From Pseudomonas sp. PSKL.D1 (GTDB taxonomy: Bacteria; Pseudomonadota; Gammaproteobacteria; Pseudomonadales; Pseudomonadaceae), in NCBI RefSeq assembly GCF_028898945.1, contig NZ_CP118607.1, positions 3,024,001 through 3,088,000 of the forward strand: 64,000 nucleotides of DNA, in the 5' to 3' direction. Shown here piece by piece: positions 3,608 through 51,430 of the stretch (positions are counted from its first letter, which is position 1; every line of letters starts with the position of its first letter). The notes beneath the pieces are model-generated. The model was not told where the DNA came from. It worked only from the letters and a program-made list of their open reading frames with translations, and searched no databases. The translations under genes were made by a program, and so were the position numbers.

Positions 3608-3665
3608 GCGCCGCTCGCGCGGCGCATCGCGGCGGTCCGACGTCTCGGTAAATCCGCTCCTACAG
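3608..3665. repeat. REP element, compound-hairpin subclass (copy 1)
   Basis: A 7-bp hairpin, GCGCCGC/GCGGCGC (3608-3625), runs into a 42-nt REP core (3624-3665). In the core, an outer GCGG/CCGC stem encloses an inner CCGA/TCGG hairpin. The core recurs at 16392-16433 and 18224-18265. It lies between the divergent YcaO and rlhA genes. Confidence 0.85.
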
Positions 3666-5780: not shown

Positions 5781-5856
5781 GCCCTTTCGCGACACAAGGC
5801 CGCTCCCACAGAGTAATGCGATCTCCTGTGGGAGCGGCCTTGTGTCGCGAAAGGGC
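5781..5856. terminator. Perfect 31-bp inverted repeat between convergent genes (REP pair)
   Basis: Arms 5781-5811 and 5826-5856 are exact reverse complements with a 14-nt loop. They carry the REP-type core GGGAGCGGCC plus a TGTGTCGCGA stretch. The repeat sits between the rlhA stop (5760) and the convergent aminotransferase stop (5885), so it probably ends transcription from both sides. Confidence 0.75.
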
Positions 5857-9786: not shown

Positions 9787-9860
9787 GCGCGACGCATCGC
9801 GGATAAATCCGCTCCTACAGTGGCCCGTGTAGGAGCGGATTTATCCGCGATGCGTTGCGC
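9787..9860. repeat. Inverted pair of REP elements
   Basis: The arms 9792-9819 and 9828-9855 are perfect 28-nt reverse complements around an 8-nt centre. The repeat extends as GCGC/GCGC past one mismatch to 9787-9860. The core is the ATTTATCCGCG subtype. It separates the divergent LuxR gene and mdcR. Confidence 0.85.
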
Positions 9861-15551: not shown

Positions 15552-16436
15552 TCACAGGCTCCCGGCTTTGTCGAGGAACAGGCAGGCGGCCAGCAAGTCG
15601 GCGGCGCCGCCTGGTGAGGCGTTCAGGTGCAGCAGGTGGGCGTCAAGCTGGCGCAATTGACGGCGCCCGGCCAGCGACGCACTGCCGCCGGTTTCCAGCA
15701 CGGCGCGAGCGCCCTGCTGCACGGCATGCAGGCCTTGCGGGCCAGCGCGCCAGAGCACGCAGGTGTCGGTCAGTGCGGCCATGATGGCGAGCAAGGCATC
15801 GAGCCGGGCGTGGCTTTCGCTGACGCCTGCGGCGCGGCTGCGGCGCAGTTGCGGCAGGCCATGGTCAATCACGGCAGGAAAGCCTTGCTGGGCCTGCTCG
15901 CGGGCACCGCTGATGCCGTAACGGCGGCGCACCTGGGCACCGTGGCTGTCTTGTGCGGCGGCTGCAGGGTCGTCGATCAAGGCAATGCGGCCGGCTTTGG
16001 CGGCCACGGTTTCAGGGGCGGCCTTGGGGGCCAGCGCCTGGGCTGCAACCAGCAGGCCGAGCGCCCAGATCGCGCCACGGTGGGTGTTGACGCCGCCGGT
16101 GGTGGCCAGCATGGCGGCCTCACCTTCGCGGCCGATCTGCCCCAAGGCTGCACGCAGGGGTTGAGTGATCTGGCCGTGGGTTTGGCCGGCTTCGGCCATT
16201 TGCCGCAGGCAGGGCCACAGGGCCAGGGCCGAGGCATGCATCAGGGCCAGGGTCATGTCGGAATGGGCGCCGCTGCTGCGGCGGTCGACCAGGCCGGGTT
16301 TGGGGGACAGGTCGGCTTCGTCGATCAGGGCTTCTATGGCCAGGTCGGCGAGGTGGTCTGGCAGGGAGACCGTTTCAAACCGTGCTGGCCTCATCGCGGC
16401 GGTCCGACGTTTCGGTAAATCCGCTCCTACAGGCAT
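15552..16436 (-). CDS. mdcB: Triphosphoribosyl-dephospho-CoA synthase with REP-derived N-terminus
   Basis: The 294-aa protein matches MdcB, which makes the prosthetic-group precursor from ATP and dephospho-CoA. The family core starts at [25 protein letters not shown] and includes [13 protein letters not shown]. The best start is the ATG at 16436: it shares a base with the mdcA stop (TGATG) and has AGGAG six bases upstream. The next 14 codons are then the reverse complement of a REP element (16392-16433), giving a foreign, basic leader before a second ATG at 16394 that has no Shine-Dalgarno site. The 42-nt element keeps the frame. The enzyme body looks intact. Confidence 0.88.
16392..16433. 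repeat. REP element inside the mdcA-mdcB junction (copy 2)
   Basis: This 42-nt element differs at two positions from the copies at 3624-3665 and 18224-18265, and lies in the same orientation. It falls directly behind the mdcB start codon, so it is probably translated. With the copy at 18224 it forms a direct repeat flanking mdcA. Confidence 0.85.
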
Positions 16437-18097
16437 CACCAGCTCCTGAAGCGTGCGGGGGGGTTGTAGAGGCCGCCGGACCAGTCCACCAGGTCGGCGA
16501 TGCTGCGTGCGGCCAGCAGTTCGCGGCTGGCGTCGGTGCGGCGGATGCCGAGGTCTTCGGGCAAGGCCACCAGGCCTTGCTGGCGCAGGCGCAGGGTGTC
16601 TTTGGGGTTGTGGCGCAGGCCTATGGCCGTGACTCCGGCCACGGCGGCGATCATTTGCTGGCGTTCTTCCAGGCTGCGGGCCTTGTAGAGGTAGGCAATG
16701 CCCTCTTCGGTCAGCAGGTGGGTCACGTCGTCACCGTAGATCATCACCGGCGCCAGCGGCATGCCGGCTTTTTTCGCCACTTCCACCGCATCGAGGGTTT
16801 CCACGAAGGTGGGCTTGCCGCCCTCCTGGAAGGTTTCGACCATCTGCACCACCAGCTTGCGGCCGCGCTCAAGCAGGGTTTCGGGTACGGTCATGTCGAG
16901 CCAGGCCGGGGTGGCGTGGCGCCGCCCGCGCGGGTCGTGGCCCATGTTCGGGGCACCGCCAAAGCCTGCCAGGCGGCCACGGGTCACCGTCGAAGAATGG
17001 CCATCGCCATCCACCTGCAAGGTGGCCCCGATGAACAGGTCCACGGCGTATTGCCCGGCCAGCTGGCACATCATGCGGTTGGAGCGCAGCGAGCCGTCGC
17101 GGCCGGTGAAGAACACGTCCGGGCGCTGGGCGATGTAGTCTTCCATGCCCAGTTCGGTGCCAAAGCAATGCACGCTTTCGACCCAGCCGGTTTCGATGGC
17201 CGGGATCAGCGTCGGGTGCGGGTTGAGGGTCCAGTTGCGGCAGATCTTGCCTTTGAGGCCCAACGATTCGCCATAGGTGGGCAGAATCAGTTCGATGGCG
17301 GCGGTGTTGAAGCCGATGCCATGGTTCAGCGACTGTACGTTGTGTTTTTCATAGATGCCGCGGATGGCCATCATGGCCATCAACACGTGCACCGGCTTGA
17401 TGTGGCGCGGGTCGCGGGTGAAAAGCGGTTCGATGTAGAACGGCTTGTCGGCCACCACTACGAAGTCGACCCAGGAGGCGGGAATGTCCACCCGTGGCAG
17501 GTCGTCGGTGTGCTCCACCAACTGGTTGACCTGGGCGATCACCAAACCGTCACTGAACGCGGCGGGTTCTACCAGTGCCGGGGTGTCTTCAGTGCTGGGG
17601 CCTGTGTACAGGTTGCCCTCGCGGTCGGCCATGAACCCTGCGACCAGGGTCACGTTGGGGATCAGGTCCACCACCAGCCGGGAGTAGAGTTCGATGTAGG
17701 TGTGGATGGCGCCGACTTCCAGCAGCCCGTCTTCGAGCAACTGGCCGATGCGCAGGCTCTGCGGGCCGGCGAAGGAGAAGTCGAGCTTGCGGGCGATGCC
17801 GCGTTCGAACAGGTCCAGGTGCTCGGCACGGCTGACACTGGGCATGATCATGTGCAGGTCGTGCAGGCGCTGGGGGTCGGCTTTTGCCAGCGAACGGGAG
17901 AGAAAATCGGCCTGCTTCTGGTTGTTGCCCTCCAGCACCACCCGGTCACCCGGGGCAATCAGCAGTTCCAGCGCTTCAACGATGCGCTCGGTGGGCAGCA
18001 CCACGCCCTCGGCGAGGTGGCGGACGCGGTCGAGGCGGCGTTGTTTTTCGGCGCGCCGCCGCGACCATTGCGGCGGTGGATTCTGCGTTATGGTCAT
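16436..18097 (-). CDS. mdcA: Malonate decarboxylase alpha subunit (acetyl-ACP:malonate ACP transferase)
   Basis: The 553-aa protein is the alpha subunit that swaps acetate for malonate on the MdcC thiol, the first step of biotin-independent malonate decarboxylation. It has the CoA-transferase-like fold of MdcA/citrate-lyase alpha relatives and the characteristic segments [18 protein letters not shown] and [26 protein letters not shown] is chosen as start because GGAG precedes it by seven bases; the open frame runs 21 codons further without similarity. It is the first gene of the nine-gene operon, so the operon promoter should lie between 18098 and about 18210. Confidence 0.94.
16443..16447 (-). 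promoter_or_regulatory. Ribosome binding site of mdcB within the mdcA 3' end
   Basis: The minus strand reads AGGAG with a 6-nt spacer to the ATG at 16436. It lies inside the last mdcA codons and supports initiation before, not after, the REP element. Confidence 0.65.
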
Positions 18098-18154
18098 TGT
18101 GTGACTCCACGGGTTCGCTGTCGTGGAGGTACAGTAGGGGGATAGTTGTAGGGT

Positions 18155-18195
18155 GATCAATCAAGGTGGGGGGTTGATCGTTACGGTTACCGTAA
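18155..18195. promoter_or_regulatory. Candidate MdcR operator region upstream of mdcA
   Basis: Two dyads lie 58-98 nt upstream of the mdcA ATG. TTACGGT-T-ACCGTAA (18181-18195) is a perfect palindrome that contains a T-N11-A core, typical for LysR-type proteins. GATCAA (18155-18160) and TTGATC (18174-18179) form a second inverted repeat. Binding by MdcR is inferred. Confidence 0.5.
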
Positions 18196-18208: not shown

Positions 18209-18265
18209 GCGGCGCGTTGCGCCGCATCGCGGCGGTCCGACGTCTCGGTAAATCCGCTCCTACAG
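18209..18265. repeat. REP element, compound-hairpin subclass (copy 3)
   Basis: A GCGGCGC/GCGCCGC hairpin (18209-18225) leads into the 42-nt core (18224-18265), which is identical to copy 1. It lies between the divergent mdcA and hydrolase genes, in the same orientation as the copy behind mdcA. Confidence 0.85.
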
Positions 18266-25243: not shown

Positions 25244-25396
25244 ACCGGCCTCTTCGCGGCTAAAGCCGCTCCAACAGGGGCAGTGCTTACCTCAAGGCAA
25301 GCGCAATCCCTGTGGGAGCGGCATTAGCCGCGAAGCAAGCAACGCGGTGGCTGGCACCGGCTTCGCCGGTGTTCGCGGCTGAAGCCGCTCCCACAC
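25244..25396. repeat. Cluster of three REP elements
   Basis: Units at 25244-25280, 25306-25336 (inverted) and 25353-25396 share the CGCGGCT(A/G)AAGCCGCTCC core. The third is preceded by the hairpin CACCGGCTTCGCCGGTG. They fill the gap between lpxH and the MFS gene. Orientation alternates and spacers are irregular, so it is not a CRISPR array. Confidence 0.85.
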
Positions 25397-28999: not shown

Positions 29000-29075
29000 G
29001 GCCCTATCGCGGCTGAAGCCGCTCCTACAGGGATATCACAATGCCTGTAGGAGCGGCTTTAGCCGCGATAGGGCC
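29000..29075. repeat. Inverted REP pair between convergent genes
   Basis: Arms 29000-29031 and 29044-29075 are reverse complements with a single mismatch and a 12-nt centre. The core is CGCGGCT(G)AAGCCGCTCCTACAGG. The pair separates the lipoprotein gene from the convergent AEC transporter and may also serve as a bidirectional terminator. Confidence 0.85.
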
Positions 29076-51340: not shown

Positions 51341-51430
51341 CCTGTAGGAGCGGATTTATCCGCGAACACCGGCAAAGCCGGTGCCATCCACCGCGTCGCC
51401 TGCTTCGCGGCTAAAGCCGCTCCTACAAAG
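51341..51430. repeat. Two REP elements, one supplying a stop codon
   Basis: The first unit, 51341-51386, has the GTAGGAGCGGATTTATCCGCG core plus a CACCGGC/GCCGGTG hairpin. The second, 51397-51430, has the inverted CGCGGCTAAAGCCGCTCCTACA core. The TAG stop of the next minus-strand gene lies in the second unit. Confidence 0.85.

Follow-up and report, generated by a model that had tools for sequence, protein, structure and literature searches.

Palindromic repeats lie in frame within many protein genes of Rickettsia, where they are called Rickettsia palindromic elements. In the REPIN/RAYT system, paired inverted REPs with a spacer between them occupy extragenic space (Bertels and Rainey, 2011, PMC3116915). 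Repeat units inside the genes of enterobacteria are the subject of a separate study (PMC2759123), and Di Nocera et al. (2013, PMC3733652) give a list of coding REPs, in which intragenic GTAG/CGTC REPs are read as protein. The same authors describe two Xanthomonas species that differ in the REP found at roughly the same position in recB, and consider that most REPs at the 5′ ends of P. putida ORFs may be non-coding. The class of REP can also differ between related strains at orthologous RAYT genes, an "orthoswitch" that was inferred to arise by mutation followed by spread (Nunvar et al., 2013, PMC3686654).

The REP analyzed here lies at the 5′ end of mdcB in Pseudomonas sp. PSKL.D1, within a stretch of 64,000 nucleotides (the window). 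Like the intragenic REPs of Di Nocera et al., it would be read as protein in frame; unlike those cases, as far as the main account in that paper describes them, the start of mdcB is marked by an overlap with mdcA, and border, frame and REP classes can be traced over 35 distinct sequences (PMC3733652). It resembles the REPIN/RAYT system in that nine relatives hold paired inverted REPs with a spacer and RAYT-like genes are present in the same genome, and differs from it in that the entire REPIN is part of the mdcB reading frame in those nine relatives (PMC3116915). The mdcB gene of the window itself holds a single REP rather than two inverted REPs and a spacer. As in the orthoswitch, the REP class differs at an orthologous place; there the place is beside a RAYT gene, whereas here it is within a coding gene unrelated to RAYTs, and the REPs match resident classes (PMC3686654). 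In-frame palindromes are shared with the Rickettsia palindromic elements (mentioned in PMC3733652), but those enter many unrelated genes, whereas only one of the 41 examined copies of class V5, the class found in the window, is in frame within a gene. No paper on a REP in mdcB was found in the open-licence literature searched, although the supplementary list of intragenic REPs by Di Nocera et al. might mention mdcB.

The mdcA–mdcB junction and its REP

The genome that contains the window measures 5.88 Mb, and its named relatives are almost all Pseudomonas. MdcB, together with MdcG, supplies the prosthetic group of the malonate decarboxylase carrier protein (PMC5534430). The gene was identified by its profile score (342.1 bits for TIGR03132 versus a curated cut-off of 282.35), and no match for MdcB was found among solved structures. 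The features of the junction are as follows.

16436..18160, minus strand: mdcA open frame (TIGR01110 mdcA, 1053.1 bits, cut-off 789.15)
16443..16447, minus strand: AGGAG Shine-Dalgarno site, 6 nt upstream of the mdcB ATG and present in relatives too
15552..16436, minus strand: mdcB, triphosphoribosyl-dephospho-CoA synthase (TIGR03132 malonate_mdcB), 294 aa counted from the first ATG
16434..16436, minus strand: native mdcB ATG
16386..16433, minus strand: REP element with tail, read as 16 residues, its extent taken from genome matches and translation
16392..16430, minus strand: REP core of 39 nt, class V5, with a GTAG head, a predicted outer stem GCGG/CCGC and a predicted inner stem CCGA/TCGG
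16392..16394, minus strand: second ATG, within the REP (GCGATG)
16353..16388, minus strand: 12 codons from the REP to the conserved LADLA

On the minus strand the 3′ end of mdcA reads TTC AGG AGC TGG TGA, and its stop codon TGA (16438–16436) overlaps the mdcB ATG (16436–16434). The initial annotation had placed an AGGAG site and an overlapping ATG here, and the coordinates bear both out. The REP has the head GTAGGAGCGG, behind which a palindrome with an outer and an inner stem appears in the predicted fold, as in GTAG-type REPs, though the predicted fold of the REP alone as DNA is no stronger than that of shuffles (z = −0.22). Some other copies in the genome extend the match to about 16386. 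The first and second ATG are 42 nt apart in one shared frame, and conceptual translation agrees with the basic, in-frame leader of 14 residues that had been proposed to lie between them. The proposal of a 42-nt REP followed by the native ATG holds in part: the REP is real and in frame and the spacing of the two ATGs is correct, but the core (16430–16392) takes in the second ATG.

This second ATG was rejected as the native start of MdcB, contrary to the initial annotation, because it is part of the REP and because, of the 29 alleles with a REP, only 6 (the window included) have Met at this codon, the other 23 being without it. The first ATG has the same position relative to the end of mdcA in relatives with and without a REP, and from it the frame is open in all 45 loci of the putida group described below. 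Since it is common to both kinds of allele, it is taken here as the mdcB start. The database protein P0002 has its start at the ATG of the REP instead; the evidence suggests that this start is wrong. The REP-coded tail would then be translated from the native ATG. The view that an enzyme of a core operon has gained an N-terminus from a mobile-type repeat is supported, with the start that overlaps mdcA retained.

The core of V5, a loop-expanded class (at most 3 mismatches over 39 nt), was found at 47 places in the same genome, the mdcB copy and 46 others, and at no place in 27 other genomes of the group; a reversed control pattern had no places. A search with the 66-nt mdcB REP as query, in which 40 of 481 first-look candidates were scored, gave at least 46 matches in this genome. 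The 47 places of V5, and 104 of class V2, are the high copy numbers expected of GTAG-type REPs, and the motif GTRGGAGCGG occurs 15 times in the 64-kb window versus 0.40 times expected. Over the core, the mdcB copy is identical to one other V5 copy. Coding context was examined for 41 of the 47 places (the remaining six had no match to the pattern of the script), and by score criteria 39 of these 41 copies are not read by any gene, so that V5 is mostly extragenic, as REPs are. A gene-like frame with a prior start is open through the REP in two copies, at mdcB, where AGGAG is well placed, and at 3627–3663 of the window. The latter was ruled out as a second coding copy: the OsmC/YcaO model (TIGR03549) begins at residue 68 of the open frame, after the REP, and the likely start of that gene is MEIKVNF, downstream of the REP.

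A further V5 REP, oriented like the mdcB copy and some 1.8 kb away from it, lies at 18225–18263, close to where the mdcA frame starts. Elsewhere in the window, REP heads form inverted, REPIN-like pairs at 5800–5837, 9809–9838, 25312–25394, 29019–29056 and 51344–51426. The genome encodes two Y1 transposases of RAYT-like type (L249 and L250), flanked by REPs of the related GTAG/GTGG type (GTAGGAGCGAATTTATTCGCGATG and GTGGGAGCGGCCTTGTGTCGCGA), and V5 was found nowhere inside the two 3.3-kb loci.

One site and one frame in relatives

Relatives were collected by a protein search of named genomes, from which the best 80 of 513 loci were kept, and by screening 398 genomes from the genus, 290 of which had MdcB and from which 30 loci were taken; a further search yielded no new genomes. 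Junctions could be read in 105 of the 110 mdcB loci. The other five (L034, L038, L059, L074 and L088), which showed no junction by pattern and were dropped, are 65–68% identical to the query and fall outside the putida-group set. This set was drawn by identity (L009–L025 and L089–L116; 45 loci with 35 distinct mdcB sequences), and forms one starred clade against eight chosen outgroup rows in the tree. A forward REP is in coding position in 29 of the 35 sequences, three of these REPs being decayed and two loop-expanded. Six sequences were counted as REP-less, including L114 (with a doubtful stretch) and L113 (with a possible inverted-REP remnant). Insert-free forms such as MKALNLQPLPLADHLADLAV are also found among database proteins, and in the listed loci outside the group a short N-terminus of 14 to 25 codons precedes the conserved part, e.g., MHALNLQPKTLTLAER. 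An extension common to all relatives and free of REP similarity, the outcome that would have spoken against the initial annotation, was not what the alignment gave. Nor is the REP a one-off insertion: across the group the junction has long been a site for REPs, whose class switches.

The distance from the end of the REP to LADLA is exactly 12 codons in 27 of the 29 REP-bearing alleles, across classes V1 to V5, and the codons to the left of the REP number from 2 to 151. The exceptions are L021, the sole V6 allele, with 6 codons, and L115, with 29 codons and an inverted REP behind. When forward heads were searched in all three frames with at most one mismatch, 32 were found, every one of them in phase 0, which is also the phase with the best scores of the three decayed cores. 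The allele of the window is without the residues that precede the REP elsewhere. A comparison of flanks, as a test of conversion versus re-insertion, does not discriminate, since the GCGRTCCCT flanks and the tail CCGGCACAGG are part of a wider REP consensus; the 12-codon border does better. As judged from these alignments, one orthologous insertion whose REP later changed class would be the most economical reading.

In nine alleles a whole REPIN is in frame, consisting of an inverted REP (LLREHARSHR and alike), a spacer and a forward REP, and the inverted head is at nt 49 behind the ATG in all nine. In L115, the REPIN has the opposite order. In L105 (1051–1566), seven tandem forward REPs with a unit of 60 nt (20 codons) stand behind an inverted REP, all in frame. 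Two tandem REPs are present in the database proteins P0045 and P0053, and the tandem growth in L105 is therefore probably more than an assembly fault. In L113, within the first 26 residues of MdcB, and in P0073, the sequence VPLHGQAQAQR is a possible remnant of an inverted REP whose forward partner was lost. A protein search with the extension only, which is bound by its length, gave at least 12 matches, nine to MdcB and three to what look like ORFs that run through REP arrays. These three (P0123, P0124 and P0125, one of them named an antitermination protein) are probably mere open frames.

REP classes at mdcB and in the genomes

Counts of the classes by pattern in 28 genomes link the mdcB copy to the resident REPs for some classes. 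V3 is most abundant in exactly the four genomes with a V3-like REP at mdcB (97 to 230 copies versus at most 70 elsewhere, p = 4.9e-5), and V1 is commoner in genomes with V1 at mdcB (p = 4.4e-5), although the p-values of these tests are too small because related genomes share history. G340 is V3-rich, and its loop-expanded mdcB copy is not itself a match to the V3 pattern; G308 and G245 are V1-rich, yet their mdcB genes are without V1. V2 at mdcB has no link to the abundance of V2 (p = 0.13, 28 genomes). For instance, G308 has V2 at mdcB, but 119 copies of V1 and 19 of V2, and G000 has the most V2 copies (104), but V5 at mdcB. Classes V4 and V6, with two exact copies each in the genomes that use them, mdcB copy included, are too rare to tell, and G259 has four V6 copies and V3 at mdcB. 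The mdcB copy thus belongs to a class common in its genome for V1, V3 and V5, but not for V2.

On a tree of mdcA and the body of mdcB (43 rows), at least nine class changes among the 29 alleles and at least five changes of presence are required; the placement of the window is not fixed by this tree. The tree shows an alternation of two allele shapes within the clade of L094, L012, L022, L018, L010 and L013, which also fits an exchange of mdcB ends between species. Paired positions of the REP stem change together: in 21 distinct cores, 95.2% of cells are paired versus 82.6% in shuffles, and covariation is 0.369 versus 0.150, both values reached by 0 of 500 shuffles. Three of the five measures of covariation stand at 0 of 500, and two are weak, reached by 15 and 178 of 500. 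When the loop is set aside, the cores of all 15 intact V1 alleles differ at 0.80 of 23 bases, versus 3.80 predicted from the gene body, a figure that depends on the sample (0.22 versus 2.93 for nine chosen alleles, and 0.91 versus 3.05 when L015 and L020 of the same clade are added). Over all 27 ordinary cores the difference is 4.26 of 23 bases versus 4.30 from the gene body, so that here the REP is not better conserved than the body; this is expected from class switching, and drift might give the same value. The low divergence of V1 cores and the change by class therefore indicate conservation of the REP inside each class, with differences arising when the class changes. An old insertion that drifted slowly would hardly yield such a pattern, whereas a REP that is copied from resident ones, or is itself under selection, would do so.

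Origin and meaning of the coding REP

The comparisons make it probable that one old REPIN insertion in a tolerant N-terminal tail was later rewritten in place by resident REPs, and that it decayed or was lost in some lineages. Early in the history of the P. putida group, a REPIN (inverted REP, spacer, REP) would have entered the coding region of mdcB at its 5′ end, behind the overlapping start codon and ahead of the conserved domain. Because the tail that it encodes is disordered and tolerated, the insert would have remained part of the gene, translated from the native ATG. The REP would then have been overwritten in place by the REPs of each genome, either by non-allelic conversion or by RAYT-related copying into an existing REP. 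The frame would be kept in such replacement because the ordinary classes are equal in length and the class of the window is 15 nt longer. In other lineages, one arm may have been lost, the REP may have decayed or disappeared, or it may have been multiplied in tandem.

Rather unlikely is repeated independent insertion, with the start of mdcB as a preferred target at which each lineage gained its own REP. The different classes, the opposite REPIN order of L115, the REP-less alleles scattered among REP-bearing ones with the changes of presence they imply, and empty-site-like forms such as MKALNLQPLPLADHLADLAV are consistent with it, but an exact right border in nearly all alleles and a single frame would demand extreme specificity of both site and phase. 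The alternating allele shapes, in a clade that is mostly well supported, are consistent with allele exchange, in which a few old mdcB REP alleles spread between species by homologous recombination. Such spread is very unlikely as the whole account, since it leaves unexplained why V5 is in none of the 27 other genomes and why V1 and V3 at mdcB are linked to the resident classes; it may act beside in-place replacement.

Other explanations give the REP a function at mdcB. If it exerted control on translation or the mRNA, the REP would tune the initiation of mdcB through its hairpin, or would bring its own start (SD-like AGGAG, hairpin and ATG). AGGAG does occur within the GTAG-head classes and GCGATG in some, the protein recorded in the database for this genome has its start at the ATG of the REP, and Di Nocera et al. 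favor control over coding for most REPs at 5′ ORF ends in P. putida (2013, PMC3733652). However, the predicted accessibility of the start region does not differ between 29 REP-bearing and 66 REP-less junctions (p = 0.20 and 0.67), the initiation region is predicted to fold as RNA no more strongly than shuffles (z = −0.21), and few alleles have Met at the REP codon. The initial annotation placed the hairpin in the initiation region; that it matters there is not borne out by these predictions, on which hairpin control was rejected, and a control element of either kind appears quite unlikely. Most improbable is a function acquired by the encoded tail itself, for instance in binding a partner of malonate decarboxylase. 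Its long retention and the similarity of the peptides over the classes would fit a use, but the tail varies, is missing from 6 of 35 sequences, is present seven times over in one and is disordered in the structure model. In this model of MdcB, pLDDT is 51 and 57 for residues 1–20, and the first helix begins at residue 25. The body of mdcB is under purifying selection (median dN/dS of 0.20 over 595 pairs). Given the low model confidence and the constrained body, the N-terminal tail is best seen as disordered and tolerated.

A change of REP class at a fixed place has, as far as the orthoswitch study treats it, only been speculated on (PMC3686654). The 5′ REP of mdcB is a counter-example to the view that P. 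putida REPs at the 5′ ends of genes are mostly mis-annotation. With about even confidence, we see the 5′ end of mdcB as a long-lived coding site at which the resident REP family overwrites the REP in frame, so that the N-terminus of the enzyme would follow the repeats of its genome, a concerted evolution inside a protein. As a coding site whose border and frame are fixed and which has orthologs in many species, the 5′ end of mdcB would be a natural recorder of REP replacement.
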